From Rhodoligotrophos appendicifer (lineage in GTDB: Bacteria > Pseudomonadota > Alphaproteobacteria > Rhizobiales > Im1): a DNA stretch of 64,000 nucleotides. This document shows positions 8,763-41,553 of this stretch, piece by piece. The notes under the pieces are model-generated. The model was not told the DNA's origin. It did not search any database and saw only the letters and a program-made list of their open reading frames with translations. The stretch's first letter is position 1; the number at the start of each line of letters is the position of its first letter. Location: positions 62,001 through 126,000 of the forward strand of contig NZ_VHKL01000002.1 of NCBI RefSeq assembly GCF_007474605.1, read 5' to 3'. The translations under genes and the position numbers were made by a program.

Positions 8763-8775
8763 CCTATTGACAGTA
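8763..8775 (+). promoter_or_regulatory. island operator-like motif, site 1
   Basis: CCTATTGACAGTA, an instance of the pseudo-palindrome CTAT-NR-ACAG. It lies in the divergent region between the SDR (start 8693) and a TRAP solute-binding protein (start 8893). Related copies precede other units of the island, including gntR. It contains TTGACA, so it may overlap a -35 box. Confidence 0.5.
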
Positions 8776-8892
8776 CAAGAGGGCATGTGATCTCGTGGCG
8801 GAGGCCGTCCTGAGGAGGCCGCTGAAGACCCGAGCGTCTGGCGGCTCAGCAAGGGCAGCGCGCATAAACAGAAACGCGAAGAGGGAACGCAC

Positions 8893-9939
8893 ATGGGATG
8901 TCTGAAGAGGGCGGGCGCGTTGGCGCTGGCCGGGCTTGCCGTCGCACTCACCGCCAGCCTGGCCCAGGCCCAAGTCGTGCTGAAATATTCGAGCTACAAT
9001 CCGCTGACCCACTTCGTGAACAGCGAGGTCATGCTGCCCTGGGGCAAGCAGGTTGAGGAGGTCACCCAGGGGCGGGTCAAGATGGAGGCGCTGACCAAGA
9101 TGGTCGGCACCGCGCCGGCGCAATATGACGTGGTCCGCGACGGTCTCGCGGACATGGCCTTCATCACGCCGGGATATACGCCGGGACGCTTCGATCTCGC
9201 CAGCCTGGGCGAACTGCCGCTGCTGAGCGATGATCCGGTGGTCGCCTCGGTCGCCTATAACCGCTTCTTCGACAAATATCTGGCGCCGATCGGCCTGTTC
9301 GACGACGTCCATGTGCTGGCAACCTTCGTCGGCTCGCCGGGCAATGTGTTCGGGCGCAATGCGGCCATCACCAAGGCTGCGGATTTCAACGGATTGAAGA
9401 TCCGCGCGGCGGTGTCGATGACCATCCCGCTGCTGAAGAATCTCGGGGCGGCCCCGGTCCAGAAGCCGGTGACCGAGCTCTATGAACTGCTTTCGACGGG
9501 CGTTCTGGACGGGTCGCTTTCAGGCGCGGATCAAGCCGTAACCTATAATATCGCTGACGTGGCCAAGGCGATCACGCTGGTTCCGGGCGGTCTCTACAAT
9601 TCGGCGCTCGGTGTCGTCGTCAACAAGGACAGCTGGGCGAAGATCAGCCCCGAGGACCAGGCGGCGATCATGAAGATTTCCGGCGAAGAGCTCGCCAAGC
9701 GCATGGGCGAGGCGTTCCGCAAGCCCATGCAGGCGGGCATCGACGCCATGAAGGCGAAGGGCAAGGACGTGGTGACGGCCGATGCGACCCTGGTGGCTGC
9801 CATCGCCGAGGCGGCCAAGCCCGTCGAGGCCCAGCTGCTGGAGTCGGCCAAAGCCAAGGGGCTCGCCGATCCCACCGCCGCCATGGCCGACTATCGGGCG
9901 ATGATCAAAGCCATCGGCCCGGAATTCGCCGCGAAGTGA
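8893..9939 (+). CDS. TRAP transporter solute-binding protein (DctP family), copy 1
   Basis: 348 residues. The signal peptide ends ...LAQAQ. The mature protein carries the DctP fold with AQYDVVRDGLADM near 80 and PGYTPGRF just after it. It also has the conserved GLKIR arginine near 170 that binds the ligand carboxylate in TRAP proteins, and QKPVTELYELLSTGVLDG near 190-207. GAGGGAAC precedes the ATG. No permease genes lie beside it. It is one of five close paralogues in the island and probably supplies a shared permease. It is followed by an SDR gene 24 nt downstream. Confidence 0.93.
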   Translation: MGCLKRAGALALAGLAVALTASLAQAQVVLKYSSYNPLTHFVNSEVMLPWGKQVEEVTQGRVKMEALTKMVGTAPAQYDVVRDGLADMAFITPGYTPGRFDLASLGELPLLSDDPVVASVAYNRFFDKYLAPIGLFDDVHVLATFVGSPGNVFGRNAAITKAADFNGLKIRAAVSMTIPLLKNLGAAPVQKPVTELYELLSTGVLDGSLSGADQAVTYNIADVAKAITLVPGGLYNSALGVVVNKDSWAKISPEDQAAIMKISGEELAKRMGEAFRKPMQAGIDAMKAKGKDVVTADATLVAAIAEAAKPVEAQLLESAKAKGLADPTAAMADYRAMIKAIGPEFAAK

Positions 9940-9963
9940 TCGACATATAGAGGCTTGCGCATC

Positions 9964-10773
9964 ATGCTGAATTTCGGACTTGAAGGCCGCGTGATCATGG
10001 TCACGGGCGGCGCCTCGGGAATCGGGGGCGCCGTCGTGCGCCTGGCGGCTGCCGACGGCGCGAAAGTCGCCGTCGTCGACGCCAACCAGGAGGCAGGAGA
10101 TGCCATGGTCGCGCGCCTTGAGGCGGCGGGTTCGCAAGCCGTGGCGATCACACTCGACGTGCGCGATAGCGAAGCCCTGCGAGCTGCGGTCGAGACAACG
10201 GAAGCAGTGCTCGGGCCCCTCGACGGGGTCGTTGCCGCCGCCGGAATTTCGCGGCCGGCAAAGGCCGAGGAGATGTCAGGGGAGTTCTGGTCGGCGGTCA
10301 TCGACATCAACCTCACGGGCATGTTCAACACGTTCCAGGCGGCAGGCGCGCAGATGCTGCCGCGGCGACGGGGATCGCTGGTGGCCGTCGGATCGGTCGA
10401 TTCGCTGGGCGGCCATGCGGCGCGGATCCATTACAGCGCGTCCAAGCACGGGGTCGCGGGCCTGGTGAAATCACTGGCGATCGAGTGGGGCCGCCACGGG
10501 ATCCGGACGAATTGCGTCGCTCCCGGTGTCGTCGACACGCCGCTGCTGCGTAGTGTGGGGGTGCCGGAGCATATCGACGGGGTCATGTGTGACAGGACCC
10601 CTCTTGGCCGGCTGTCTTCGCCAGAGGACCAGGCCAAGGTGGCGCTGTTCCTGCTTTCGGATGCGGCTTCCTATGTGAACGGCGTGGTGCTGCCTGTGGA
10701 TGGCGGGCTGACGGCAGGCTTCTTCACCCATCTGCATGGCGCCGATTACGGTTCGCGGGCCCTGCTGCCGTGA
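9964..10773 (+). CDS. SDR family oxidoreductase
   Basis: 269 residues from ATG 9964 (a TTG at 9955 is possible). The NAD-binding loop TGGASGIGGAV is near 14-24 with Asp after beta-2. The active site comprises the Ser in GSVDSLGG and YSASK near 155; APGVVDTPLLR and the terminal PVDGGLTAGFF are typical. It lies 24 nt after solute-binding protein copy 1, so the two probably share a transcript, linking uptake with oxidation of the ligand. It converges with the next SDR gene. Confidence 0.88.
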   Translation: MLNFGLEGRVIMVTGGASGIGGAVVRLAAADGAKVAVVDANQEAGDAMVARLEAAGSQAVAITLDVRDSEALRAAVETTEAVLGPLDGVVAAAGISRPAKAEEMSGEFWSAVIDINLTGMFNTFQAAGAQMLPRRRGSLVAVGSVDSLGGHAARIHYSASKHGVAGLVKSLAIEWGRHGIRTNCVAPGVVDTPLLRSVGVPEHIDGVMCDRTPLGRLSSPEDQAKVALFLLSDAASYVNGVVLPVDGGLTAGFFTHLHGADYGSRALLP

Positions 10774-10783
10774 CGTTGAAACG

Positions 10784-11548
10784 TCAGGCGGCGGTATAGC
10801 CGCCGTCGAGCATGATCACCGCACCGGTGGCGTAAGAGGCCCGATCGGAGCACAGGAACACGACGGTCTCGGCGATCTCTTCGGGGGTCGCCAGACGGCC
10901 CAGCGGGGTGCGGGCGCGCATGCTGTCGGCACGAGTCTCGAGGGAGTGTGAGATCAGCGGCGTTTCCACATAGCCTGGACAGACGGCATTGATGCGGATG
11001 CCGTCGCGGCCATATTCCAGGGCGGCCGCCTTGGTCAGGCCGATGACGCCATGCTTGGCCGCCGTATAGGCGCCGGCATTGGGCAGGCCGATGACGCCGG
11101 CAATCGAGGCCGTGTTGATGATGACGCCGCCCTGCCGGAGGACCGACAGCTCGTGCTTCATGCAGAGCCAGACGCCGGTCAGATTGACGGCGATCATGCG
11201 GCTCCAACCTTCCAGGCTGTATTCGCCCAGGCGTTTGCCGGTCTCGCCGATGGCGGCGCCGCCGATGCCGGCATTGTTGAAGGCGCAATGCAGCGCTCCA
11301 TAGGTCGAAACGGCGTGATCGACCATGCGCGCGACCTGGGCGTCGTCGGACACATCGGCAGCCACCGCAGAGGCGGTGCCGCCTCGCGTCTGGATCATGG
11401 CGACAGTCTCGCCGGAGGTCTCGGTGCCAAGATCCGCGACGACGACGGCGGCTCCTTCGCGGGCCATGGCCAAGGCTGCCGCGCGACCGATGCCGGAGCC
11501 GCCGCCGGTGACGAGGGCCACCTTGCCGTCGAGAAGCGACGTGCTCAT
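10784..11548 (-). CDS. SDR family oxidoreductase
   Basis: 254 residues: TGGGSGIGRAAALAM (14-28), NNAG near 91, Ser in NTASIAG, YTAAK near 159, PGYVETPL and the end MLDGGYTAA. The Asp after beta-2 (VVVADLG) suggests NAD(H). Its ATG overlaps the stop codon of the upstream solute-binding protein gene (ATGA, 11545-11548), so the two are translationally coupled. Confidence 0.9.
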   Translation of the reverse strand: MSTSLLDGKVALVTGGGSGIGRAAALAMAREGAAVVVADLGTETSGETVAMIQTRGGTASAVAADVSDDAQVARMVDHAVSTYGALHCAFNNAGIGGAAIGETGKRLGEYSLEGWSRMIAVNLTGVWLCMKHELSVLRQGGVIINTASIAGVIGLPNAGAYTAAKHGVIGLTKAAALEYGRDGIRINAVCPGYVETPLISHSLETRADSMRARTPLGRLATPEEIAETVVFLCSDRASYATGAVIMLDGGYTAA

Positions 11549-12576
11549 TGGGCGAATTCGCTGCGGAACTTCGCGATCTGGGCCTTGTAATCTGCCAGCA
11601 CGGCAGCCGGATCCTGTAAGCCGCTGTCTGCCAGCGTCTGGTCGATAACGGGGGCGACCGCGGCGGTGATCTCGGCGACGAATTCAGGGCTGGCGGTCAA
11701 GACCGTCTTGGGAGGGTGGCCCATGATCTCCAGGCCACGCTGATCGAGCGTGCGATAGGCGCGACCCACCTTCTCCGCCAAAGCACGGCCGGATATCTTG
11801 GTGATCGCCGCGCGGTCGGCCTCGTCAATTCTGGCCCAGACATCCTCGTTGATGGCAATGCCCAGCACGGAATTGTAGAGCCCACCGGGCACGAGGGTGA
11901 GATGGTTGATGACTTCGCCCAGCTTGAAGCCGGCGACCTGCTCCTTGCCCGCCAGCGTGCCGTCGAGAATGCCGCCGACGAGGAGTTCATACAGTTCGGA
12001 GACGGGCTTCTGGACCGGAACGGCACCCATGGCCGCGAGCATGGGGCCGGTGGTGGCCAGGGGAGAGCGGAGCTTGAGGCCCTTCATATCCGCCAGCGTC
12101 TCGACCGGCTTCTTGACTGTGAAAATCTGGCCGGGGGAGGTGGTGAACATGGCGACCATGTGGACGCCCTTGAAGACGTCCATGGGCGTGATCACCGTCT
12201 CGTAGAACCAGTTGAACGAGACGGCGCCCGTCAACGGGTCGTCGGAGAGCATGGGCAGTTCGCCGACGGAGACGACGTTGAACCGTCCGGGCGTATAGCC
12301 GGGGATGAAGAGGGCCATGTCGGCCAGGCCGTCGCGGACCACGTCATATTGCGAGGGGACGGAGCCCACGACCTTAGGCAGGATGTTGATCTTGACGCGG
12401 CCCTCGGTGACCTGCGCGACCTCCTCGGTCCAGGGGACGATCGCCTCGGTGTGAAGCAGATGCGCCGCCGGCATCCAGTTGGAATAGTTGATCACGACCT
12501 CGGCGGCCCGTGCGGCCGACGCGGCGAGCGAGGACAAAGCTAGGGCGAGGGCCGTTGCCCGAAGGACGGTCTTCAT
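11545..12576 (-). CDS. TRAP transporter solute-binding protein (DctP family), copy 2
   Basis: 343 residues from ATG 12576. The signal peptide ends ...AARAA before EVVINYSN. It shares with copy 1 the SQYDVVRDGLADM and PGYTPGRF segments, the GLKLR arginine and KPVSELYELLVGG. It overlaps the downstream SDR by 4 nt and lies 22 nt downstream of solute-binding copy 3 on the same strand, giving a run SBP-SBP-SDR. There is no permease in this run. Confidence 0.92.
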   Translation of the reverse strand: MKTVLRATALALALSSLAASAARAAEVVINYSNWMPAAHLLHTEAIVPWTEEVAQVTEGRVKINILPKVVGSVPSQYDVVRDGLADMALFIPGYTPGRFNVVSVGELPMLSDDPLTGAVSFNWFYETVITPMDVFKGVHMVAMFTTSPGQIFTVKKPVETLADMKGLKLRSPLATTGPMLAAMGAVPVQKPVSELYELLVGGILDGTLAGKEQVAGFKLGEVINHLTLVPGGLYNSVLGIAINEDVWARIDEADRAAITKISGRALAEKVGRAYRTLDQRGLEIMGHPPKTVLTASPEFVAEITAAVAPVIDQTLADSGLQDPAAVLADYKAQIAKFRSEFAQ

Positions 12577-12598
12577 GTGCGTGCCTCCTTCGAAACGG

Positions 12599-13648
12599 TT
12601 ACTGGGCCGCTGGCTTCTTCCGTTCGGCGGTGGCGCGCGCCACGTCGGCGCGGTAGTCGGCGAGTGCTGCGGCCGGGTCCGCAAGGCCGCTTGCACGCGC
12701 CTTTTCGAGCGCCTGGGCCTCGATCGGCTCGAGGGCCTGCTTCATCGCGGCGACGAGTTCGGGAGTGGCCGTCTCGATGGTGCGGCCCGCCTTCTTCATG
12801 GCCTCGATGCCGCCCTGGTCGCCCTTATCGAAGGCACGGCCGATCTTTTCGGCGAAGGCCTCGCCGGAGACGCTCATGATCGCCTCCTGATCGGCCTTAT
12901 CGATCGAGTCCCATTTGTCCTGATTGATCAGCAGGGCCATCACCGAATTATAGGTGCCGCCGGGAATGAGGGTCAGATACTGGGTGACGTCGGCGAGCTT
13001 GTAGGAGTTGCCCTGCTCCTTCTGGGACATGGTGCCGTCGAGGACGCCGGTGGAGAGCATTTCGTAGAGCTCGGACACGGGCTTCAGCACGGGCACGGCG
13101 CCAAGCGCCTCAATGGTCGGCATGGTGCTGGCCAGCGGGCTGCGCAGCTTCAGGCCCTTGAGATCGTCGATGGTCTTGATCTGCTTCTTGACGGTGTAGA
13201 TCTGGCCCGCAGAGGTGGTGAACGTGCTCAGGGTGTGGACCCCCTTGTAGACGTCCAGGGGAGCCAGATGTTTCTCGTAGAAGCGATAAAAGGCCGTCGC
13301 CCCCACCTGTGCATCATCGGTGATGAAGGGAAGCTCGCCGAGCTCGACCAGGGGGAAGCGGCCGGGCGTGTAGCCGGCAACGATGTAGACGACGTCGGCG
13401 AGGCCATCGCGAACGACATCGAACTGGGTGGGGACGGTGCCGACCACCTTGGGCGCGATCTCGACGGTGACACGGCCGTTCGTCAGCCTGGCCACGTCCT
13501 CGGTCCAAGGCTTGAGAACATCGGTATAGAGCGGATGGCCCAAGGGCACCCAGTTGGACATCCGCAACACCGTGTCGGCGCGGGCGCCGACCGTGGCCAG
13601 GAGCGTCGTCGCAGCAACGGCAGCCGCAATCGCAAGCTTACGGAACAT
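12599..13648 (-). CDS. TRAP transporter solute-binding protein (DctP family), copy 3
   Basis: 349 residues from the third of three consecutive ATGs (13654, 13651, 13648), which has the best spacing from GGGGAG. The signal peptide ends ...VGARA before DTVLRMSN. The family core is intact: TQFDVVRDGLADV, AGYTPGRF, GLKLRSPL and KPVSELYEMLSTGVLDG. It is the first gene of the minus-strand run with copy 2 and the SDR, and is divergent from copy 4. Confidence 0.92.
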   Translation of the reverse strand: MFRKLAIAAAVAATTLLATVGARADTVLRMSNWVPLGHPLYTDVLKPWTEDVARLTNGRVTVEIAPKVVGTVPTQFDVVRDGLADVVYIVAGYTPGRFPLVELGELPFITDDAQVGATAFYRFYEKHLAPLDVYKGVHTLSTFTTSAGQIYTVKKQIKTIDDLKGLKLRSPLASTMPTIEALGAVPVLKPVSELYEMLSTGVLDGTMSQKEQGNSYKLADVTQYLTLIPGGTYNSVMALLINQDKWDSIDKADQEAIMSVSGEAFAEKIGRAFDKGDQGGIEAMKKAGRTIETATPELVAAMKQALEPIEAQALEKARASGLADPAAALADYRADVARATAERKKPAAQ

Positions 13649-13702
13649 CATCATCTCCCCACTGGTTTCTTCACATTTTTGATGCCGCCTAGCGTGCGTA
13701 TT

Positions 13703-13715
13703 TCTATAAACCAGT
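13703..13715 (+). promoter_or_regulatory. island operator-like motif, imperfect site 2a
   Basis: TCTATAAACCAGT resembles the island motif with one extra C before CAG. It lies 55 nt upstream of the minus-strand solute-binding protein copy 3, in the divergent region that also holds site 2b. Confidence 0.3.
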
Positions 13716-13770
13716 CAAGCATCAAATTAGGCTGAGACGGTCCTTCGAGGGCGAAGAGGGCAAAAGAATG

Positions 13771-13789
13771 TCTATTGACAAGACAATAG
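13771..13789 (+). promoter_or_regulatory. island operator-like motif, site 2b
   Basis: TCTATTGACAAGA matches the island motif except for one core base. Here it is part of an exact inverted repeat, CTATTG (13772-13777) with CAATAG (13784-13789) around six bases. It lies about 90 nt before solute-binding protein copy 4. TTGACA at 13775 followed after 17 nt by TGTAGT could be a -35/-10 pair for that operon. Confidence 0.45.
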
Positions 13790-13877
13790 GCATTGAGTGT
13801 AGTTCGGGAGAGTTGGCCCGTGTCGGCCGCGCAGCGCGACGAAGATCCGCAATCAACACTTCATGGGGAGCAAAAGG

Positions 13878-14921
13878 ATGGGACCATCGTGGAGGCAATC
13901 GATTCTGGCCGGCCTCGCGCTCGCCGCAGCGACGGCGTTCGCGGCGTTGCCTGCCCAGGCGGAGACCGTCCTCAAATTTTCCGCATGGCTGCCGGTTCAG
14001 CACTGGTTGAATGCGGGTGTCATGAAGCCTTGGGCCGACGCGGTCGACGAGGCCACCCAAGGCCGTGTCCGGATCGAGTTCCTGCCGAAGGTGGTCGGCT
14101 CCGCCCAGGCGCAGTTCGACGTGGTGCGGGACGGCCTCGCCGACGTCTCGATCATCGTCAATGGCTATACGCCGGGACGCTTCACCCTGCTGGAGATGGG
14201 CGAGCTGCCGTTCCTCGGCACCGAGGCGGTCGTCATGTCGCCGGCCTTCTACCGGATCTATGAGGAATATCTCTCGAAGTTCGACGAATTCGATGGCGTC
14301 CATGTGCTGAGCACCTTCACCACGGCGTCGGGCCATATCTACACCACCAAGGTCGAGATCGACGATCTTGCGGACCTCAAAGGACTGAAGCTCCGCAGCC
14401 CCCTGGGCAGCACGGCGCCGATCATGACGGCGCTGGGGGCCGTGCCCGTCCAGAAACCGTCGACGGAGGCCTATGAGCTCCTGTCGACGGGGGTGATCGA
14501 CGGCACGTTCCTGTCGCGGGAGGGCGCCAAAGGCAACAAGATCCTGGAGCTGGTGCCGTTCCTCACCGTGGTGCCGGGCGGGCTCTATAACGCCATCTTG
14601 AGCGTCATCGTGAACCAGGCGAAATGGGATGCGATCACGCCGGAAGATCAGGCCGCCATCATGAAGGTCTCCGGCGAGGCGCTGGCGCTGAAGATCGGCC
14701 AGGCCTATCAGAAAGCGGACGAAGACGGGCTCGAGGCGATCAAGGCTGCGGGACACACGGTCACGGTCGCAAATCCGAAACTTCTGGGCGAGATGAAAGA
14801 GGCCCTCAAGCCGATCGAGAGCGCCTGGATCGAAAAGGCCAAGGCGAAGGGGCTGGACAATCCGGAAGAGGTTCTGGCCCAGTTCCGCGCCGAACTCCAG
14901 GCTGGTGCCAAAGCGAACTAA
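13878..14921 (+). CDS. TRAP transporter solute-binding protein (DctP family), copy 4
   Basis: 347 residues from ATG 13878, with GGGAG 6 nt upstream; an in-frame ATG at 13863 is less well placed. The signal peptide ends ...LPAQA before ETVLKFSA. The core segments AQFDVVRDGLADV, NGYTPGRF, GLKLRSPLG and EAYELLSTGVIDG are present. It is the only intact paralogue encoded next to permease genes (DctQ 14980, DctM 15474), so it defines the transporter its four orphan relatives may share. Confidence 0.93.
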   Translation: MGPSWRQSILAGLALAAATAFAALPAQAETVLKFSAWLPVQHWLNAGVMKPWADAVDEATQGRVRIEFLPKVVGSAQAQFDVVRDGLADVSIIVNGYTPGRFTLLEMGELPFLGTEAVVMSPAFYRIYEEYLSKFDEFDGVHVLSTFTTASGHIYTTKVEIDDLADLKGLKLRSPLGSTAPIMTALGAVPVQKPSTEAYELLSTGVIDGTFLSREGAKGNKILELVPFLTVVPGGLYNAILSVIVNQAKWDAITPEDQAAIMKVSGEALALKIGQAYQKADEDGLEAIKAAGHTVTVANPKLLGEMKEALKPIESAWIEKAKAKGLDNPEEVLAQFRAELQAGAKAN

Positions 14922-14979
14922 CCCGCCATACCGGATCGGTGGCCGGACACTGCCTCAGTAGCGAACCGGGGGTGACCCA

Positions 14980-15474
14980 GTGCTTTCAGGACTCGAGAAG
15001 ACCGTCGGGATCATCGCATCCGCGTTCCTCTTCCTCATGATGATGATCACGCTCGTCGACGTGATCGGTCGACAGGTGTTCAATCATCCCATCGCCGGGG
15101 GCACGGAAATCACCGAAATCACGCTGGTGGTGATCACCTTCCTGGTCTATCCCATCATCGCCTTTCGCCGGAAGCACATCACCGTCGACATCGTCGACAC
15201 TGTGCTGGGACCCCGGGCGCGGATGGTGCAAAGGGTGGTCACGGGGCTCCTCGGCGCCTTCATCTTCGCCTGCTTGGCCTGGCGCTTGTGGATCCTCGGC
15301 GACCGGTCCGCCAGCTACGGCGACACCACGGCGTATCTGCTGATCCCGATCGGCCCGGTCTTCTGGTTCATGTCGATCATGTCGGCGCTCACCGCCCTCG
15401 CGTTCATCGCGCTGATGTTCTCCTCGGCTGGCGACAATGAGCCCGCCGTCACTTCATTGCCGGGAGCCGATTGA
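14980..15474 (+). CDS. TRAP transporter small permease (DctQ)
   Basis: 164 residues with four transmembrane segments, starting at GTG 14980 after a GGGGGTG sequence. It has the DctQ pattern: TM1 followed by DVIGRQVFNHPIAGGTE, then the RRKHITVDIVD loop. It forms the membrane complex with DctM that couples ligand uptake to a sodium gradient. Its stop codon overlaps the DctM start (TGATG at 15472-15476). Confidence 0.9.
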   Translation: MLSGLEKTVGIIASAFLFLMMMITLVDVIGRQVFNHPIAGGTEITEITLVVITFLVYPIIAFRRKHITVDIVDTVLGPRARMVQRVVTGLLGAFIFACLAWRLWILGDRSASYGDTTAYLLIPIGPVFWFMSIMSALTALAFIALMFSSAGDNEPAVTSLPGAD

Positions 15475-16769
15475 TGCTGGCTGCCGGTCTCGGCTTCCTT
15501 GCCGCCTTCGCGATCATCTTCTCCGGGATCCCCATCGCCATCGCCCTTGCGTTGGTCGGGTTTCTGGGATTTGCCGCCCTCAACGGGGTCACCCCGGCTC
15601 TCAGCATGATCGCGCTGGCGGCCAAAGACAGCACCATGTCCTATTCGCTGTCGGTGATTCCGCTGTTCATCCTGATGGGCAACTTCATCGCGGGCGCCGG
15701 CATTTCGGGCGATCTGTACCGGGCGGCTCAGGTTTTCATCGGGCGCCGGCGCGGCGGCCTCGCCATGGCGACGATCCTGTCCTGCGGCGGGTTCGCCGCG
15801 GTGTGCGGCTCGAGCGTGGCCACGGCCGTCACCATGGCCAAGGTGTCACTGCCGTCGATGCGGAAATATGGCTATAGCGACGGGCTGGCGACGGCTTCCG
15901 TCGCCGCCGGCGGGACGCTCGGGATCCTGATCCCGCCCAGCGTGCTGCTGGTGATCTACGGCATCATCACCGAGAGCCATATCGGCAAGCTGTTCGCGGC
16001 CGGCATCATCCCGGGTCTGCTCGGCATCTTCGGCTATCTGATGGCCGTGCAGTGGACCGCCTGGCGCGATCCCAGCGCCGCCCCTCCGGGAGCGATCGCA
16101 GACAGAGCCGAGAAGATCGACGCGGTGCGCTCGGTGTGGCCCGTCGTGCTGCTGTTCGGCCTGGTCATCGGCGGGATCTACGGGGGCTGGTTCACCGCGA
16201 CGGAGGCTGCGGGAATCGGTGCCAGCGGCGGCTTTTTCTTCGCGCTGCTGAGGGGACGGCTGTCGCTTGCGACGCTGTACGAGATCCTGCTCGACACGGT
16301 GCAGACGACGGCGGTGATGTTCGCGCTGCTGCTCGGGGCCATGATGTTCGGCGAGTTCATCAACTATACCGGCGCGCATGAGGGCCTGCTGCAGGTGGTC
16401 GAGGCAAAGGGCCTGCCGCCGGCGCTGGTGATCACGTTCATCATCATCATCTATCTGGTGCTCGGATGCCTGCTGGAGAGCATCTCGATGATGCTGCTCA
16501 CGGTGCCGTTGTTCTTCCCGATCATCACCGGGCTTGGCTATGACCCGATCTGGTTCGGGATCATGGTGGTGGTGCTCGTGGAAATCGGGCTGATCACGCC
16601 CCCGATCGGCGTCAATCTGTTCGTCATCAAGGCCGTGTCCAAGGATGTCTCCATGATGACGATCATCCGCGGGATCATCCCGTTCATCGTTGCAGATCTG
16701 TTCCGGATCCTGATCCTGGCGCTGGTTCCGGCGATCTCGCTCTGGCTGCCAAATCTCTTGTTCAATTGA
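15474..16769 (+). CDS. TRAP transporter large permease (DctM)
   Basis: 431 residues with about a dozen hydrophobic segments. It shows the DctM/elevator-type signature: PLFILMGNF near 60, AVCGSSVATAVTMAKV near 105, GGTLGILIPPSVLLVIYG near 145, and the second-half repeat GCLLESISMMLLTVPLF and EIGLITPPIGVNLFVI. It starts at ATG 15474, one base overlapping dctQ, in the operon copy 4 SBP-dctQ-dctM-SDR-nitroreductase. Confidence 0.95.
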   Translation: MLAAGLGFLAAFAIIFSGIPIAIALALVGFLGFAALNGVTPALSMIALAAKDSTMSYSLSVIPLFILMGNFIAGAGISGDLYRAAQVFIGRRRGGLAMATILSCGGFAAVCGSSVATAVTMAKVSLPSMRKYGYSDGLATASVAAGGTLGILIPPSVLLVIYGIITESHIGKLFAAGIIPGLLGIFGYLMAVQWTAWRDPSAAPPGAIADRAEKIDAVRSVWPVVLLFGLVIGGIYGGWFTATEAAGIGASGGFFFALLRGRLSLATLYEILLDTVQTTAVMFALLLGAMMFGEFINYTGAHEGLLQVVEAKGLPPALVITFIIIIYLVLGCLLESISMMLLTVPLFFPIITGLGYDPIWFGIMVVVLVEIGLITPPIGVNLFVIKAVSKDVSMMTIIRGIIPFIVADLFRILILALVPAISLWLPNLLFN

Positions 16770-23203: not shown

Positions 23204-23204
23204 C

Positions 23205-34111: not shown

Positions 34112-35302
34112 TCAGTAGGATTTCGGCAGGCCGAGAACCCGCTCGGCGATGTAGCACATGATCAGTTCACGGCTGACGGGGGCGATGCGAGGGAGCATGA
34201 TCTCGCGGAGATAGCGCTCCACATGGTATTCTTTGGCATAGCCGAAGCCGCCATGGGTGCGGACCGCCCGGTCGCAGGCGTCGAAGGCCGCATCGGCAGC
34301 GAGATATTTCGAGGCATTGGCCTCGGCGCCGCAAGGCTCTCCCCGGTCGTAGAGGGACGCCGCGCGCCAGACCATGAGATCGGCAGCTTCGAGAGCCATC
34401 CAGCTTTGCGCCAAAGGATGCTGTATGGCCTGGTTCTGGCCGATGGGGCGGCCGAAGACGCGACGTTCCTTGGCATAATCGGAGGCCTTGGCGAGCGCCC
34501 GGCGGCCAAGGCCGACGCATTCGGCTGCAATCAATATGCGCTCCGGATTAAGGCTGTCGAGGAGCATGCGAAAGCCCTTGCCCTCCTCGCCGATACGGTC
34601 TTCCACAGGGACTTCGAGGTCCTCGATGAAGATGGAATTCGAATTTACGGCGGCGCGGCCGAGCTTGTCGATCTCGCGCACCTCGATGCGACTGCGATCG
34701 AAGTCCGTATAGAAGAGGGTGATGCCCTCCGTGGGCTTCGCACAGTCCTCGATCGGCGTGGTGCGGGTGAGGAGGAAAAGCTTCGTCGCCTGCTGGGCGG
34801 TCGTGGTCCAGACCTTCTGGCCGTTGACGATGTAGCGGTCGCCGCGGCGCACCGCGCGCGTGGTGATGTGGGTGGTGTCGAGGCCGGCGTCGGGCTCGGT
34901 GACGCCGAAGGCCACCTTGTCCTCACCGCGCACGAGCGGCGGAATGATCCGCTGCTTCTGCTCCGGCGTGCCGTAAAGGACGACGGGGTGAGGGCCGAAG
35001 AGATTGATGTGGAAGGTCGAACAGGCGGCGATGGCGCCGGCGGAATTGGCCACGGTCTGCATCATGATCGCCGCTTCGGTGACGCCCAGCCCGGCGCCGC
35101 CGAACTCCTCCGGCATGGTGATCCCCAGCCAGCCGCCGGCCGCAATGGCGGCGTGAAAGGCATGGGGGAACTCGTGCTTGCGGTCCAGGTCGAGCCAGTA
35201 ATCATCGTCGAAGCCGTCGCAGATCCGCTTCACGGAGTCGCGAATCTGCTGACGCTCGGGCGTCATCTCGACACCTGAAGGTGCCCCGTCCTGCCAACTC
35301 AT
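34112..35302 (-). CDS. acyl-CoA dehydrogenase
   Basis: 396 residues. FAD- and substrate-binding signatures are AFGVTEPDAGLDTTHITTRAVRRGD near 133-157, GQKVWTTTAQQA near 165 and the C-terminal GGFGYAKEYHVERYLRE near 350. The usual catalytic-Glu stretch (EGT) is replaced by PRIAPVSRELIM, as in one subgroup of the family in which the Glu follows SR. It introduces the alpha,beta double bond into an acyl-CoA. Its ATG overlaps the stop of the upstream ligase alpha 2 gene. Confidence 0.93.
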   Translation of the reverse strand: MSWQDGAPSGVEMTPERQQIRDSVKRICDGFDDDYWLDLDRKHEFPHAFHAAIAAGGWLGITMPEEFGGAGLGVTEAAIMMQTVANSAGAIAACSTFHINLFGPHPVVLYGTPEQKQRIIPPLVRGEDKVAFGVTEPDAGLDTTHITTRAVRRGDRYIVNGQKVWTTTAQQATKLFLLTRTTPIEDCAKPTEGITLFYTDFDRSRIEVREIDKLGRAAVNSNSIFIEDLEVPVEDRIGEEGKGFRMLLDSLNPERILIAAECVGLGRRALAKASDYAKERRVFGRPIGQNQAIQHPLAQSWMALEAADLMVWRAASLYDRGEPCGAEANASKYLAADAAFDACDRAVRTHGGFGYAKEYHVERYLREIMLPRIAPVSRELIMCYIAERVLGLPKSY

Positions 35303-36165
35303 TGCAGCATCTCCCTCGTCTTATCCGCAAGCTCCGCCGGGGAGCGGGCGATGGTGGCGCCGGCCTCCTGGAGAGCTGCCATTTTTGCCTTGGCGGTTTC
35401 CCGCTCGCCCCCGACCAGAGCGCCGGCGTGGCCCATGCGCTTGCCCACCGGGGCATGGCGCCCGGCGATGAGGGCGAGCACCGGCTTAGTGGCCGTACCG
35501 ATCAAATCGAGCATGGAATATTCTTTCGTGCCTCCGATCTCGCCGACATAGAGAACGGCATCGGTTTCGGGATCGGCGAGGAAAAGCTGCAGCCATTCAT
35601 GGGGATTGCGGCCGCACAGGGCATCGCCGCCGACATGGACGATCGTGCTCTGTCCGATGCCGGCGCGCGTGAGGGTCGCCGCCACCGTCATGGTCAAGGT
35701 ACCGCTGCGGCCGATCACGCCGACCCTGCCGGGCATGGTCATGCCGGGGGGGATGGCGCCCAGCATGGCCTGGCCGGGAGTGACAATGCCGACCGTGTTG
35801 GGGCCGCTGATCCAGAGAGACCGCTCGCGGGCATAGGCCACGGCGTAAAGCGTGTCGTGAAGGGGAACGAATTCGGCGGCCGCGGTGGCGAGGCGCAGGC
35901 CGGCATCGGCGCATTCGACGATGGCGTCGCGGGCGCCCATGGCCGGGGTGTAAATGAGGGCCGCATTGGCCGACGTCGCCGCAACGGCCTCAGCCACAGA
36001 CTCGAAAACAGGAAGTCCATCGACGCGGGAGCCTCCACGACCGGCCGCCGCATGAGCCACGATATTCGTCCCCGTCTGGGCGGCAAACTGGACCTGGGCA
36101 CGGCCATAGGCTCCGACAGCGTTGACGGCCAGGACGCGGGCATTCCGATCGAGAAGCACTGCCAT
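35299..36165 (-). CDS. CoA-binding alpha subunit of acyl-CoA ligase, pair 2
   Basis: 288 residues. The phosphohistidine loop KRMGHAGALVGGERETAKAK is intact near 234-253, as are GGTKEYSML and GPNTVGI. The CoA-binding loop differs from pair 1: VNAVGAYGRAQ replaces the usual G-x-Q-G-K/T, though the GRGGSRVDGLPVFESV segment is kept. It is the first gene of the 13-gene minus-strand operon; its promoter must lie in 36166-36435, shared with the divergent CoA-transferase gene. Confidence 0.86.
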   Translation of the reverse strand: MAVLLDRNARVLAVNAVGAYGRAQVQFAAQTGTNIVAHAAAGRGGSRVDGLPVFESVAEAVAATSANAALIYTPAMGARDAIVECADAGLRLATAAAEFVPLHDTLYAVAYARERSLWISGPNTVGIVTPGQAMLGAIPPGMTMPGRVGVIGRSGTLTMTVAATLTRAGIGQSTIVHVGGDALCGRNPHEWLQLFLADPETDAVLYVGEIGGTKEYSMLDLIGTATKPVLALIAGRHAPVGKRMGHAGALVGGERETAKAKMAALQEAGATIARSPAELADKTREMLQ

Positions 36166-36435
36166 GGATGGGACTTGCCTGCTGATTTCAACTCTGTCGA
36201 GACAGTGTCGGGTGGATGGTCCGGGACTTGCAGCCTCAGCTTCAGAATTTGCAAAGCCCTTCAGGTAGGATTAAAACTAGGACATCCATCTTTCTCAGGC
36301 AACCGTCAATTTTCGTGGGTCCATTCTCCTGTCACGCCTGGTGAAGTATGGTCGTTCCATAAAGAGTACTCATGACCGGCGACGCGGGTGCCGGCCGGTC
36401 CGCCCTCCTGTCCGCTGTCCAAGGGATGTCTAGGC

Positions 36436-37698
36436 ATGGATGAACGCGATCTCGACCTTTCAGCCTTCATCGGTCCGGGTGATTTCATCGTCTGCCCGCA
36501 AAATCTCGGCGAGCCCGTCGCCTTGACGAGGCGCCTGGTCGAGCAGCGACACGAGATCGGGCCTTGCAGCCTGTTCATCGGCGGCTCCTATTCGGGCGTG
36601 TTCCGGCCTGAGCACGGGGACAGGATCCGCTTTCTCAGCTATTGCGGCATCGGCGACAATCGCGCCCTCATCGAGGCGGGATGTCTCGATCTCCTGCCGC
36701 TGCACTATTCGGAGCTTACGGCGTTCCTCGAGCGCGGGAGAGCGCCCGACGTGGTGCTGGTGCAGCTCAGCCCGGCCGACGGCAATGGCCGCCACAGCCT
36801 GGGCGTGAGCAACGACTACATTCTCGCGGCGGCACGGCGCGCGAAGAGGATCATCGCCGAGATCAATGAGTGCATGCCCTGGTGCCATGGGGCGGAATGG
36901 CCGAAGGAGCTCGTCCTCGACGCGGCTGTCCACACCCGACGCGAATTCACCAGGCCCAAGGTCGCCGAGGCGAACGAAGCCGCGGGCCGGATCGCCCAGC
37001 ACGTCGCCGCCTTCATCCCCGATGGCAGCGTCATCGAGCTGGGGACAGGCGCCATTCCAGACCAGATCCTGAGAGCGCTCAGGCATCACAAGGATCTGGG
37101 CATCCATACCGGCCTCGTCGGCGATGCGCTGGTCGATCTGTACGAGAGCGGCGCCGTCACCAATGCCCGAAAGCCGATCGATACCGGGGTGACCGTGACG
37201 GCCTTGCTCGGGGGGTCCAGCCGCTTGGAGCGGTTCGCCCACCTGAACCCGGACCTCTCGGTTCGGCCCAGCTCGTATACCCATGATCCGGCCATCCTTG
37301 CGAAGCTGGATGGCCTGATCGCCATCAATGGAGCGGTCGAGGTCGATCTGACGGGGCAGGTGAGCGCCGAGGTGGCGGGCCCACGCTATCTCGGAGCGGT
37401 CGGAGGCCATGGGGATTTTACACGCGGTGCCTTGCGGGCGCCCAATGGGCGGTCGATCGTGGCGCTGAACGCCACGGCGCGGCAGGGGCGTGCGAGCACG
37501 ATCGTGCCCCGGATTATCCACGGTCCCGTCACTACGCCGCGCAGCGATGTGGACCTGGTGGCGACGGAATGGGGCATCGCGGAGCTCCGGGACCAGCCAG
37601 TGGCGGAGCGGGCCCGGCGGATGGTCGCCATCGCGCATCCGGATCACAGGGAGGCGCTGGAACAGTCCGCGGCCGAGGTGCTTAAGGCCGGCTGGTAA
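36436..37698 (+). CDS. acetyl-CoA hydrolase/transferase family (class I CoA-transferase)
   Basis: 420 residues from ATG 36436. Two NagB/RPIA-type halves: the N-terminal half has CGIGDNRALIEAG and VQLSPADGNGRHSLGVS near 117-133. The C-terminal half has ELGTGAIPDQIL near 196-207 and INGAVEVDLTGQVSAE near 295-310, where the Glu of VEVDLTGQ is the expected catalytic nucleophile. It resembles 4-hydroxybutyrate/butyrate:acetyl-CoA CoA-transferases. It is divergent from the long catabolic operon and ends directly against the gntR stop codon. Confidence 0.9.
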   Translation: MDERDLDLSAFIGPGDFIVCPQNLGEPVALTRRLVEQRHEIGPCSLFIGGSYSGVFRPEHGDRIRFLSYCGIGDNRALIEAGCLDLLPLHYSELTAFLERGRAPDVVLVQLSPADGNGRHSLGVSNDYILAAARRAKRIIAEINECMPWCHGAEWPKELVLDAAVHTRREFTRPKVAEANEAAGRIAQHVAAFIPDGSVIELGTGAIPDQILRALRHHKDLGIHTGLVGDALVDLYESGAVTNARKPIDTGVTVTALLGGSSRLERFAHLNPDLSVRPSSYTHDPAILAKLDGLIAINGAVEVDLTGQVSAEVAGPRYLGAVGGHGDFTRGALRAPNGRSIVALNATARQGRASTIVPRIIHGPVTTPRSDVDLVATEWGIAELRDQPVAERARRMVAIAHPDHREALEQSAAEVLKAGW

Positions 37699-38448
37699 TC
37701 AGTATACGAAGTTCGAGATGTCGCGCTCGATGCCGAACCGGTCACCGCGATAGGTGTAGGTGCCGAAGAGCAGGATCCGATTGTTCGCGTCCAGGAAGAC
37801 GCGAGAAAGGCGGGCTACGGGCAGGGAAGAGGAGATTTTCAGCAGCCTGGCCTCCTCATATTCCGGCATGTCGACGGAAATCCGCTCGAAGGCGGATACG
37901 GGCTTGGGATCGGCGTGCTCACGGACGAGCCTGACGATCTTCACCCGACGCTCGGCGCCCTTGGGAAATTTCTTGTAGATGTCGAGCGCCACGTAATTCT
38001 CGGAGAGGGAGTAGGGGTTGTCGCGCTCGCTGTCGAGCTTGCGGACGCGCATGTAAGGACCATGCGGCGTGCCGTGACTGAGGGAGGGGTGGATGATCGT
38101 CTCCAGCTGCTCCTTTTCCAGGATCTCGATCCCATAATGGGCTGCATCGATTTCCACCGCGCCGATGGAAGAAAAAAGCGGGCGTCCGTCGGAGACCGAG
38201 ACCTGATATGTGACGAAGGTGCGGCGTCCCCGCTGGCTGGACAGAAGACCTTCATTCGAGAGCATCTGGATGGCCTGGCGGACGGTGACGCGGGCCACGT
38301 TGTATTGGAGGGCGAGCTGTTCGAGGGTGGGGATCTCCTCGCCGTCCTTCCAGACGCCGCTATAAATGCGGTCGCGCAGGATTCGGGCGAGTTGCGCATA
38401 GAGTGTGACGGGACCCGGTTGTAAAGCTGCGGACGGCATTTTCATCAT
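37699..38448 (-). CDS. GntR/HutC-family transcriptional regulator
   Basis: 249 residues. The N-terminal winged helix-turn-helix is clear: LYAQLARILRDRIYSGVW, then EEIPTLEQLALQYNVARVTVRQAIQMLSNEGLLSSQRGRRTFV near 37-80. Residues about 95-245 form a UTRA ligand-binding domain of the HutC subgroup. It is the only transcription factor recognised in the catabolic island. A copy of the recurring CTAT-NR-ACAG motif lies 14 nt before its start codon, suggesting autoregulation. Ligand unknown, perhaps an acyl-CoA or acid of the pathway. Confidence 0.93.
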   Translation of the reverse strand: MMKMPSAALQPGPVTLYAQLARILRDRIYSGVWKDGEEIPTLEQLALQYNVARVTVRQAIQMLSNEGLLSSQRGRRTFVTYQVSVSDGRPLFSSIGAVEIDAAHYGIEILEKEQLETIIHPSLSHGTPHGPYMRVRKLDSERDNPYSLSENYVALDIYKKFPKGAERRVKIVRLVREHADPKPVSAFERISVDMPEYEEARLLKISSSLPVARLSRVFLDANNRILLFGTYTYRGDRFGIERDISNFVY

Positions 38449-38461
38449 CTTGTCGGAACAT

Positions 38462-38474
38462 CCTATGAACAGGA
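38462..38474 (+). promoter_or_regulatory. island operator-like motif, site 4 (gntR leader)
   Basis: CCTATGAACAGGA, core CTAT-GA-ACAG, lies 14-26 nt upstream of the gntR start codon in the 72-bp gap between the hydrolase and gntR genes. A site this close to the start would fit autorepression. Confidence 0.5.
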
Positions 38475-38520
38475 CTACTGTACCGTGCAGGCATGGGGCG
38501 GTGCAAGATCGCCGAAGGGG

Positions 38521-39441
38521 TTAGGGACGTAGGCGCGCCGGGGCCTTCACGCGGCGGCGAAGAAACGTGCCGACCCGGTCGATGGCAGCGCGGCCTTCGG
38601 GCAGCATCTTGGCAAAGAACGGCCAGATATGGGGCATGTCCTCCCAGAGGTCGAGTTCGACCTCCACGCCAGCCTTTCGGGCATTTTCCGCCAGTCTCAG
38701 GGCGTCGTCGCGCAAGGACTCAGCCCTGGTGGCCTGGAGGAAGAGAGGCGGGAGCTCGGCGAGATCGGCAAAGACTGGAGAGGCGAGGGGATGTCGCGGG
38801 TCGCCCGATGGGCCGAGATAGCGCTCGACCGAACCCGATGCGCTGAGGCGCTGCACCAAGGGGTCGGAACGGGCATTCTCGTCCAGCGACGGCGCTGAGA
38901 GGGACAGATCGGCCCAGGGGCAGATGGCGGCGGCGCAGGCGGGAAGAGGCGCGCCCCTCTCGCGGAGGGAGAGGAGGAGCGAAAGCGCCAATCCGCCCCC
39001 GGCCGAATCTCCGGCAAGGGCAATGGACTGGGCCGGTATGCCGGCCGCCAACACGCCGTCATAGGCGGCCCCCGCATCGTCGAGGGCGGAGGGAAAGGGG
39101 TGCTCCGGGGCCAAGCGGTAATCAAGAGAGACCACCCGGAGGCCTGAGGCCCGCGCCAATCGGCCGACGAATTCCCGGTGGGTCAGTGGAGAGCCCACCG
39201 AGAAGCCGCCGCCGTGCAGGAAGAGCAGCGTACCGGCGGGTGGCTCTGCGTCTCTGATGGTGGTCACTTCAGCGGGGATGCCGCCGATTTCCGTCGGCGT
39301 CACCGTCACGTCTTCCGGAAGCGGCAGCATCAAAGCGCTCAGGCGGAGGAATCCGGCCCTGCGCATTTCCACCGAGGGATTCGCCCCGGGTTGTGGCGGC
39401 CCCAGGAGTGTCAGGAGTGCCGAAAGCTCGGGGCTAGCCAT
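38521..39441 (-). CDS. alpha/beta hydrolase, HSL (hormone-sensitive lipase) type
   Basis: 306 residues. The oxyanion motif HGGGFSVGS is near 74-82, the nucleophile elbow GDSAGGGLAL near 146-155, and the catalytic His lies in DMPHIWPFF near 275; the acid is probably in the ATRAESLRDDA segment. Such esterases hydrolyse short-chain esters or lactones, which could be the products of a Baeyer-Villiger-type monooxygenase. It follows solute-binding protein copy 5 by 33 nt. Confidence 0.9.
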   Translation of the reverse strand: MASPELSALLTLLGPPQPGANPSVEMRRAGFLRLSALMLPLPEDVTVTPTEIGGIPAEVTTIRDAEPPAGTLLFLHGGGFSVGSPLTHREFVGRLARASGLRVVSLDYRLAPEHPFPSALDDAGAAYDGVLAAGIPAQSIALAGDSAGGGLALSLLLSLRERGAPLPACAAAICPWADLSLSAPSLDENARSDPLVQRLSASGSVERYLGPSGDPRHPLASPVFADLAELPPLFLQATRAESLRDDALRLAENARKAGVEVELDLWEDMPHIWPFFAKMLPEGRAAIDRVGTFLRRRVKAPARLRP

Positions 39442-39474
39442 AGGGGGTCTCTCGTTTCTGCGACCACTGCCGGC

Positions 39475-40521
39475 TCAGTCGGCATGGTATTCCTTCTGAA
39501 GCGTCGCAATCATCGCACGATAATCGGCGAGGGCCGCCTCGGGATCCTTGAGGCCCTTGGAGCGCGCCATGTCGAGGACGGAGGCTTCCACCGGCTTCAG
39601 AGCCGCAGCGATGGCCGCGGTCAGTTCCGGGCTTGCGGTCTCCACGGTGCCCCCCGCATCGCGCATCCGCTGGAGGCCTTCGGCGACGGGCTTGCGATAG
39701 ATCTCGCCCACACGCTTGGCCAATTTCTCTCCGGAGATGGCCGTGATGGCGGCGCGATCGGCTTCGCTGATGCTGTTCCACTTGTCTTTGTTCATGACGA
39801 AGACGAGGACGGAATTGTAGAGGCCACCGGGAACGATCGTTATGGCCTTCGCGGCGTCCGCGAGGTTCCAGGTGACGGCCTGCTCGGCCCCGGACAGGCT
39901 GCCATCGATGACACCGGTCGAGAGCAGCTCATAGAGCTCGGTGGCCGGCTTCTGAACCGGGATCGCGCCGAGGGCCGTGATGACGGGAACCGTGGTCGTC
40001 AGCGGGCTGCGCAGCTTCAAGCCTTTCAGATCGGATATCTGCTTAATCGGTGGGCGCTTGGTGAAGATCACGCCCGGAGAGGCCAGCGTCACCGTCACGA
40101 CGTGGACATCCTTGAAGATGTCGAGCGGGGCCAAGTATTTCTCGTAGAACCGATAAAAGGCCACGGACGCAACCAGCGGGTCGTCGCTCAACAGGGGCAT
40201 CTCACCGATATTGGTCAGATCGAAACGTCCCGGGGTATAGCCGGGGGTGACGAGGGCCATGTCGGCCAAGCCATCCCGCACGACGTCGTATTGCGACGGG
40301 GCGGTGCCGGCCATCTTGACCATGTGTTCGAATTTTACGCGGCCGTCGGTCACCCTCGCCACTTCTTCAGCCCAGGGCAGGATCGCGTCCTTGCTGATGG
40401 GGTGGGTCGCCGGCACATAGCTCGAATATTTGATGATGGTCTCGGCATGGGCGGCCCCCGGTGCCATCCAGGCACAGAGCGCAATCAGCGCCGTACGCGC
40501 AGCCTGTCGCAACAGCTTCAT
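39475..40521 (-). CDS. TRAP transporter solute-binding protein (DctP family), copy 5
   Basis: 348 residues; the signal peptide ends ...GAAHA before ETIIKYSS, and GGGAGGAT precedes the ATG. It is closest to copy 1 by eye: both share SQ/AQYDVVRDGLADMA, TPGYTPGRFDL, PLLSDDP, KYLAP and ELYELLSTGV-DGSLSGA-QAVT. The ligand arginine is in GLKLRSPL. An orphan binding protein without permease, in a unit with the HSL hydrolase, followed by gntR. Confidence 0.93.
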   Translation of the reverse strand: MKLLRQAARTALIALCAWMAPGAAHAETIIKYSSYVPATHPISKDAILPWAEEVARVTDGRVKFEHMVKMAGTAPSQYDVVRDGLADMALVTPGYTPGRFDLTNIGEMPLLSDDPLVASVAFYRFYEKYLAPLDIFKDVHVVTVTLASPGVIFTKRPPIKQISDLKGLKLRSPLTTTVPVITALGAIPVQKPATELYELLSTGVIDGSLSGAEQAVTWNLADAAKAITIVPGGLYNSVLVFVMNKDKWNSISEADRAAITAISGEKLAKRVGEIYRKPVAEGLQRMRDAGGTVETASPELTAAIAAALKPVEASVLDMARSKGLKDPEAALADYRAMIATLQKEYHAD

Positions 40522-40624
40522 CGTGCATCCTCCCGCTTATTCTTATGATCCTGGACCCGCACGATGCGCGCCCCGGACCTGTTTGCCCGAAATAAGGCCT
40601 TCAACTCGACCATAAGTTAGGTTT

Positions 40625-40637
40625 ACCTGTCAATAGA
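40625..40637 (-). promoter_or_regulatory. island operator-like motif, site 5
   Basis: On the minus strand this reads TCTATTGACAGGT, core CTAT-TG-ACAG. It lies in the divergent region between solute-binding protein copy 5 (104 nt away) and an SDR gene (73 nt away), mirroring the arrangement of site 1. Confidence 0.5.
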
Positions 40638-40709
40638 TCTACTCCGGGTCGGAATAGGGCTTTCAAGTTCACTATCCGCGCCGTGAGCCGGTGAAGAAGA
40701 GAGGCAAGC

Positions 40710-41480
40710 ATGGTGGCATCAAGCAGCAGAGCGGTGTTGATCACGGGTGCGGCGGCCGGAATCGGGGAGGCGACGGCGCGCCATTTCGCGGCGCGAGGCG
40801 CAAATGTGTTCCTCGTCGACATCGACGGGGACGGCGTCGAGCGACTGGCACGAGACCTCGGCTGCACCGCCCGGTGGTTGTGCGCTGACGTGGCGGACGA
40901 AGCGCAGTCGTTTCACATCGTCGAGTCGATGCAGCAGGCTTTCGGGCGGATCGATGCCGCCATTCTGAATGCTGGCATCGAGGGACGAATTGCTCGCCTC
41001 GGTGAGCTCTCCCTCGGCGATTATGAAAGGGTGATGGATGTCAATGTTCGCAGCGTGTTTCTCGGCCTGTCCCGGCTGATGCCGCTCATGCGCGCCCAAG
41101 GTGGCGGTTCGATCGTGATCCTGTCCTCTACGGGCGGCGTGCGGGGGAGCGTCGGACTTGCGCCCTATGTGGCGAGCAAGCATGCAGTGCTGGGACTGAT
41201 GAAGACCGCAGCCCTGGAGGGGGCCGCCCACAAGATTCGGGTCAACAGCGTCAATCCGGCGCCCATCGAGACGCGGATGATGCAGGCGATCGAGGCGGGT
41301 GCGCAGCCCTCGGCACCGCAGCAGGCGCATGAACGGATCGCCTCGGCCATTCCGCTGAAACGGTATGGCAGGCCGGAGGAGGTCGCCGCGATGATCCATT
41401 TCCTGGCGAGCGAGGAGGCGTCCTTCTGTACGGGCGGCGTCTATATGGTGGATGGAGGAACCCTGGCCGGCCGCTGCTAG
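40710..41480 (+). CDS. SDR family oxidoreductase
   Basis: 256 residues: TGAAAGIGEATARHFAARG (12-30) with Asp after beta-2 (VFLVDIDG), NAGIEG near 88, the Ser in LSSTGGVRG and YVASK near 151; the end is VDGGTLAGRC. The motif NPAPIETRMM replaces the usual PG-x-x-x-T. Probably an NAD-dependent alcohol or hydroxyacyl-CoA dehydrogenase. Divergent from solute-binding protein copy 5; the LLM gene follows after 117 nt with its own motif. Confidence 0.9.
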   Translation: MVASSSRAVLITGAAAGIGEATARHFAARGANVFLVDIDGDGVERLARDLGCTARWLCADVADEAQSFHIVESMQQAFGRIDAAILNAGIEGRIARLGELSLGDYERVMDVNVRSVFLGLSRLMPLMRAQGGGSIVILSSTGGVRGSVGLAPYVASKHAVLGLMKTAALEGAAHKIRVNSVNPAPIETRMMQAIEAGAQPSAPQQAHERIASAIPLKRYGRPEEVAAMIHFLASEEASFCTGGVYMVDGGTLAGRC

Positions 41481-41540
41481 AGGGTCCCTCTTCAAGGCGA
41501 CTTGACAAGCGCCGCGGCCGCCTCCTAGGCTCATAGAAAT

Positions 41541-41553
41541 CCTATAAACAGAA
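41541..41553 (+). promoter_or_regulatory. island operator-like motif, site 6
   Basis: CCTATAAACAGAA, core CTAT-AA-ACAG, lies 44 nt before the start of the second LLM monooxygenase gene in a 117-bp gap. Confidence 0.5.

Follow-up and report, generated by a model that had tools for sequence, protein, structure and literature searches.

A repeated palindromic word at the unit heads of a Rhodoligotrophos appendicifer catabolic island is the predicted operator of the island's own GntR/UTRA regulator

What is the role of a short word that is repeated ahead of most units of a single catabolic island? This question is raised by a stretch of 64,000 nucleotides from Rhodoligotrophos appendicifer (assembly GCF_007474605.1, contig NZ_VHKL01000002.1, positions 62,001 to 126,000), referred to here as the window, in which the word CTATNRACAG recurs between genes for TRAP transport proteins, SDRs, luciferase-like monooxygenases (LLM) and a GntR-type regulator. 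The best-supported reading is a single local regulon, in which the repeated word is very probably the operator of the island's own GntR/UTRA protein, with binding predicted from sequence comparison. The regulator and its putative sites are as follows:

37699-38448, minus strand: GntR/UTRA (HutC-type) regulator of 249 amino acids (Pfam PF00392, PF07702), predicted to bind the operators.
8762-8775, plus strand: putative operator ACCTATTGACAGTA, in the divergent gap between an SDR gene (7938-8693, minus) and a gene for the TRAP binding protein DctP (8893-9939, plus), 119 nt upstream of the DctP start.
13702-13715, plus strand: putative variant operator TTCTATAAACCAGT, 49 nt upstream of a DctP gene (12599-13654, minus) (leave-one-out matrix).
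13770-13783, plus strand: putative variant operator GTCTATTGACAAGA, 81 nt upstream of a DctP-DctQ-DctM-SDR-nitroreductase unit (13863, plus) (leave-one-out matrix).
18411-18424, plus strand: putative operator TTCTATTAACAGGA, with the top matrix score, 94 nt upstream of an LLM monooxygenase-flavin reductase-thiolase unit (18517, plus).
36355-36368, plus strand: weak candidate TTCCATAAAGAGTA (matrix score 12.4), in the divergent gap between a 13-gene operon (36165, minus) and a CoA-transferase gene (36388, plus).
38461-38474, plus strand: putative auto-regulatory operator TCCTATGAACAGGA, with two TCCTRT half-sites, 14 nt upstream of the gntR ATG.
40625-40638, minus strand: putative operator ATCTATTGACAGGT (as read on the minus strand), in the divergent gap between a DctP gene (39475-40521, minus) and an SDR gene (40710, plus).
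41540-41553, plus strand: putative operator TCCTATAAACAGAA, 19 nt upstream of an LLM monooxygenase ATG (41571, plus).

The exact cores of the island begin at 8764, 18413, 38463, 40627 (minus strand) and 41542, and two core variants begin at 13704 (CTATAAACCA) and 13772 (CTATTGACAA). A first-pass annotation of the same letters had described these five cores and two variants, with starts placed one to two bases too early and without a sixth exact match in the window (5693), which lies within an EamA-like transporter open reading frame (ORF). Its observation that all seven sites are located in gaps at unit heads is borne out, and its distance of 14 nt from the gntR site to the ATG is right. The claim that the word heads most units also stands: with the heads as drawn in this analysis, strong sites are present at nine of eleven (SDR 8693 minus, DctP 8893 plus, DctP 13654 minus, DctP 13863 plus, LLM 18517 plus, gntR 38448 minus, DctP 40521 minus, SDR 40710 plus and LLM 41571 plus), while the two divergent heads at 36165 (minus) and 36388 (plus), those of the 13-gene operon and the CoA-transferase, have the weak site only. 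The 8764 site also precedes the SDR at 7938-8693, which the annotation does not mention. The layout of a local autoregulated regulon, with an operator ahead of the regulator gene and of structural units, was thus found at nine of the eleven heads.

All seven sites share the asymmetric CTAT-NR-AC. With its flanks, the gntR site reads TCCTAT-GA-ACAGGA, a palindrome of TCCTRT half-sites and one of the 15 perfect TCCTR-N4-YAGGA matches listed in the genome. The pseudo-palindrome CTRT-NN-AYAG proposed at first is extended by the flanks and by the promoters of GntR homologues, and the predicted operator is better written as TCCTR-N4-YAGGA than in the shorter form alone.

The clustering of the word at the island heads is non-random against a flat genome background. 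Six exact cores were found in the window against 0.13 expected, a number reached in none of 100 shuffles, and the whole genome (5.59 Mb) contains 34 against 41 for a reversed control, which indicates no enrichment. As judged from mechanically called ORFs, from which all coding and intergenic assignments were made, the island cores are intergenic in five of five cases; elsewhere, 23 of 29 lie inside ORFs and six in gaps (hypergeometric 462/278256 = 0.0017). With a 14-column leave-one-out matrix, only 0-2 positions in 166 kb (both strands) equalled or exceeded each held-out site. A hypothesis-free count of gapped 4-n-4 words in 11 island gaps (still containing three uncalled genes and one 6-base gap) returned CTAT-2-ACAG as the most widely common word, present in five gaps. 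The weaker match reported at 36357 is present with a score of 12.4, and is suggestive only, as ten positions in 166 kb, its own included, score that high beyond the seven sites.

The degenerate 14-mer derived from the seven sites, and so bound to cover them, occurs at 12 further genome places, the same number as its reversed control, and TCCTR-N4-YAGGA with one mismatch (418 places per strand vs 541 for the control) is useless as a finder. Two isolated matches in this genome were taken as chance: a strong matrix match 8 kb past the window (C2:134100), inside a mechanical ORF, and a perfect symmetric TCCTATTAATAGGA at C1:156663, which falls in a mechanical ORF distant from the island.

The candidate regulator has a GntR winged helix at its N-terminus (PF00392, 1.6e-17, residues 16-79) and a UTRA ligand-binding domain at its C-terminus (PF07702, 5.7e-13, residues 128-238). 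It scores below the cut-offs of the named equivalogs HutC (TIGR02018, 71.2 vs 220 bits) and PhnF (TIGR02325, 56.7 vs 156.8 bits) and was assigned to neither. No other DNA-binding regulator was found by Pfam among the scanned genes of 8.7-43.4 kb.

The association between the dyad and this protein was examined ahead of the genes of its relatives (27-39% identity), which were collected from plasmids and from four partly overlapping sets of 61, 385, 398 and 297 genomes. After removal of near-identical upstream sequences, 53 homologue loci were thinned to 44, one locus (L014) being dropped at a contig edge; the 11 weaker GntR controls include one (L009) that the tree placed among the homologues. 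In spacer tests designed after the upstream sequences had been read, TCCTR-N4-YAGGA was matched at no fewer than nine of ten positions upstream of 8 of the 44 homologues at spacer 4 (three perfectly), compared with 0-1 at spacers 1-3 and 5-8, a mean of 0.78 (maximum 4) in 100 shuffled sets and none of the 11 weaker controls. The relaxed form YCTR-N4-YAGR was present in 10 of 44, compared with 0-3 at ten other spacers and a mean of 1.6 (maximum 6) in 200 shuffled sets. The dyad was found immediately ahead of or beside gntR in 7 of 28 relatives' loci, twice in two of them and only 11 nt ahead of the gene in one (L091); 12 of the 39 matches at 9/10 in these 28 loci were intergenic, and two sites ahead of gntR in one locus (L090) fall within a mechanical ORF. 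The exact form CTATNNACAG was seen only in the window's own copy among the first 20 GntR loci, and the link became visible once the palindrome was widened. Across these comparisons the dyad recurs with this GntR lineage in other families, in a minority of genes and well above controls.

In Tistrella, TCTAACAATAGG is located between gntR and an acyl-CoA dehydrogenase operon, and gntR lies beside acyl-CoA genes (CoA-transferase, enoyl-CoA hydratase, thiolase or acyl-CoA dehydrogenase) in five of seven annotated plasmid loci, with AtuA among them on a Microvirga plasmid; no acyl-CoA genes were found beside gntR in the Bradyrhizobium and Sinorhizobium plasmid loci, and the seven exclude a Cupriavidus record that carries no annotation. 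No close GntR relative was detected in the two other genomes of the genus and the one of the family that were searched (best 2.5e-11), which thus provide no orthologous promoters for comparison.

The strongest evidence for the GntR-operator link, at the level of sequence, comes from an orthologous island in Chelatococcus reniformis, found by a scan for the window monooxygenase (78% identity). The promoter of its monooxygenase carries AACCTATAAATAGGATAAT 54 nt ahead of the start (the orthologue site is also given as ACCTATAAATAGGA), and the genome's sole GntR match at 1e-6 is a 53% identical protein, encoded on the same contig approximately 43 kb away, which shares the recognition stretch VARVTVRQA. 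At 52-83%, proteins encoded on this contig also match the window's acyl-CoA dehydrogenase, lyase and hydratase, its second monooxygenase and ligase subunits, and its SDRs and hydrolase. Its CoA-transferases match those of the window at 29-35% only, and no match to a TRAP protein or AtuA is listed on it. Branched-chain ABC permeases and Peripla_BP_6 binding proteins occur at C7:210001-270000 where the window has TRAP genes, and operator-like sites precede several of them.

When a symmetrised window matrix was run over 100 kb of this genome, the ten best matches, two of which overlap each other (259560 and 259573), all fell within a 50-kb island at 223-273.1 kb, the bounds of which were set after the matches were partly known. 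Seven are in gaps, which make up 9.3% of the bases, two lie across the first bases (8-15) of a mechanical ORF, and one is inside a mechanical ORF that conflicts with an SDR match. The matches head the monooxygenase, a hydratase-lyase operon, the CoA-transferase/ligase divergent gap and the divergent gap of the second monooxygenase and an SDR, as well as a nitronate-monooxygenase-like gene and permease genes of branched-chain ABC transporters. In 11 head gaps, chosen near orthologues and matches and in two cases extended about 30 bases into a mechanical ORF start, nine matches were found, compared with a mean of 0.87 and a maximum of 5 for 500 column-permuted matrices; seven of these gaps score at least 12. 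The 100-kb run is independent of the choice of these gaps. The fully symmetric YCTATNNAYAGR occurs only twice in the 6.8-Mb genome, both times in the island, and the whole pattern is no commoner in that genome than its control (13 vs 16).

Promoters of monooxygenase homologues served as a further comparison. A site within 300 bases upstream was detected at one of 69 loci, that of Chelatococcus (19.4), and at none of the other 68, where the next best score was 10.1. No GntR match at 1e-15 was obtained in 66 of the 67 genomes that hold these other loci; Paraburkholderia elongata has two (35% and 31%) and no site upstream of its monooxygenase (10.0). One batch of comparison genomes gave no GntR-positive genome, and the same query found matches elsewhere, including Chelatococcus. 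The checks proposed in the first-pass annotation, namely coding versus intergenic placement, occurrence elsewhere in the genome and the promoters of a relative (where sites precede most of the orthologous units examined), all came out in favor of its single local GntR regulon, which is supported by the sole Pfam regulator, the dyad in the GntR lineage and the Chelatococcus island.

Several observations weigh against this interpretation. The 13-gene operon, which holds most of the acyl-CoA enzymes, has the weak site only. The asymmetry of the sites (A at -3 and C at +3 in seven of seven) exceeds what a symmetric dimer requires. Four of the 11 Chelatococcus gaps score below 12, including the acyl-CoA dehydrogenase head (10.1), and no strong site lies directly ahead of the Chelatococcus gntR. 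Among the homologue promoters, 34 of 44 lack the relaxed dyad, and at a threshold of 8/10 spacer 4 is unexceptional (15 of 44, compared with 17 at spacer 6 and a shuffled mean of 10.2, maximum 17). In the tree, the window GntR groups with 12 relatives, mostly from plasmids and Tistrella-like genomes, not one of which reaches 9/10, and the dyad carriers are scattered on the tree (nine changes vs a shuffled mean of 8.6). The absence of the regulator from comparison genomes is soft, since many of the 67 are draft or metagenome assemblies, and 2 of 200 shuffled gap sets attain five gaps for some 4-n-4 word. Moreover, the operator-GntR link, and direct binding with it, is a prediction.

Part of this list is shared by the suggestion that the sites belong to another regulator, encoded elsewhere in the genome and also controlling gntR, for which the tree neighbors without a 9/10 dyad ahead of gntR and the reliance of the site-GntR link on comparison of sequences would speak. 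This is quite improbable, as the dyad recurs in the Chelatococcus island and, in other families, next to genes of this GntR lineage, is absent ahead of LLM homologues in genomes without the GntR, and is accompanied by no second regulator that Pfam could find among the scanned island genes. Very improbable, too, is a promoter element rather than a repressor site, on the ground that TNRACA resembles a -35 hexamer (TTGACA). Sites with TG or TA as NR do contain TTGACA or TTAACA, and promoter scans, which decided little, gave TTAACA-17-AATCAT at 18416, a minus-strand TTTACA-17-GATCAT starting beside the 8762 site and four promoter-like matches against 1.5 expected in 8380-18540; however, none was found in 36160-41600, the distances of 14 and 19 nt to the gntR and LLM (41571) ATG are too short for a -35 element, the word is not enriched genome-wide, and in Chelatococcus its place is taken by a symmetric form (CTATAAATAG) built from the same half-sites.

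It could also be argued that the words are meaningless, arising by chance or carried along with duplicated promoters, given that most of the headed genes (DctP, SDR, LLM) have paralogues in the island and that the hypothesis-free count was matched by the two shuffled sets noted above. Such an origin has next to no probability: in the 21 pairwise comparisons of the seven sites, no more than 3-13 of 30 flanking bases per side are identical, gntR is not a paralogue of the other headed genes, and the sites recur in the island of another species.

If the word is the operator of the island's GntR protein, a homodimer would bind the imperfect palindrome TCCTR-N4-YAGGA at the heads of most units. Because sites 14 and 19 nt ahead of the gntR and LLM ATG would block the start of transcription, the protein is most likely a repressor of the pathway and of itself. 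A metabolite of the pathway would release it, probably a carboxylic acid or an acyl-CoA, the latter being a guess. Such an operator would mark the scattered units of one degradation pathway in two genomes without knowledge of the substrate, and would offer a ready reporter for finding it.

With regard to the pathway itself, Pfam and NCBIfam matches in the island include TRAP binding proteins, two DctQM pairs, SDRs, two luciferase-like monooxygenases (one of them distantly matching 3,6-diketocamphane monooxygenase, 5.1e-16), a flavin reductase, nitroreductases, a thiolase, an amidase, AtuA, two succinyl-CoA-ligase-like pairs, and acyl-CoA dehydrogenase, HMG-CoA-lyase-like and CoA-transferase genes. 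Judging from these enzyme families, the island may serve to degrade a terpenoid-like acid, either cyclic or branched. Many of them belong to one long unit:

21773-36165, minus strand: 13-gene operon (amidase, TRAP genes, HMG-CoA-lyase-like, enoyl-CoA hydratase, two succinyl-CoA-ligase-like pairs, CoA-transferase III, AtuA, acyl-CoA dehydrogenase).

Its membership of the regulon is likely, because a counterpart divergent gap in Chelatococcus, flanked by a CoA-transferase homologue (35%) and a SucD-type orthologue (62%), contains TCCCATATATAGGA, and is not secure in the present genome.

As to transport, the two TRAP membrane pairs are located at 14980-16769 and 24235-26099, and four DctP binding proteins that lack their own DctQM pair (8893-9939, 11545-13654, 39475-40521) lie in operator-headed units; these orphan receptors may feed shared permeases. 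A DctP-like gene at 23205-24213 (minus) is apparently divided between two reading frames, with ORFs at 23205-23963 and 23461-24213, the second matching PF03480 over 51 residues only, so that the second TRAP system may have a broken binding protein, or the sequence may contain an error there. The island is directly adjoined by a gene for a class III adenylate/guanylate cyclase (43415-44920, minus), and none of the seven sites lies ahead of that gene.

The proposed system resembles the HutC subfamily (HutC, NagR/YvoA, DasR, PhnF) as characterized in passages of a comparative genomics study (Suvorova et al. 2015, PMC4494728): a GntR winged helix is joined to a UTRA domain, the sites are palindromic, single sites occupy divergent gaps, and double sites each lie by their own operon, as at 13702 and 13770 here. 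Solved relatives of the window GntR include YvoA (1.1e-11) and DasR (5.7e-9). According to the same passages (PMC4494728), most HutC-type sites read GT-N4-AC (NyGTMTAKACNy), with FarR, NagQ and SdhR as stated exceptions, and the operator G is linked to Arg at position 28 of the helix-turn-helix (HTH), which is Arg35 in FadR and contacts G. The window sites differ in that they keep the N4 spacing, but between TR and YA and with CC/GG flanks. GT-N4-AC was not found: the seven sites read CTAT-NR-AC, and three relatives have a perfect TCCTR-N4-YAGGA. This lowers the claim of a typical HutC operator, and not that of HutC/UTRA subfamily membership.

By alignment with YvoA, HTH position 28 is Glu in the window GntR and Asp in the Chelatococcus orthologue. 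Arg occupies it in none of 54 homologue rows, 35 of which are acidic, and in four of the 11 weaker GntR controls, and the position is acidic in seven of eight dyad carriers outside the window. An acidic residue would fit the loss of GT from the operator, as a correlation. Among the exceptions, SdhR presumably controls succinate dehydrogenase, as we suppose from its name. Its site, given in the source as TCTTATGTCTTATATAAGACATAAGA (PMC4494728), is likewise a non-canonical palindrome without GT-N4-AC and has somewhat similar TCTTAT half-sites, with a nested longer symmetry and another spacing. In the open-access papers searched, no published report of a TCCTR-N4-YAGGA operator was found.

With a slight lean in its favor, it may be proposed that a HutC/UTRA clade of acyl-CoA and terpenoid-like catabolism exchanged GT-N4-AC for TCCTR-N4-YAGGA and the Arg at HTH position 28 for an acidic residue, and that the operator ties together islands of independent units. 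The same regulator and operator would preside over enzymes that are orthologous and transporters that are unrelated (TRAP here, branched-chain ABC in Chelatococcus), so that a different uptake system would have newly acquired the operator. A non-canonical operator, together with a candidate specificity residue, would thereby be added to the HutC subfamily.

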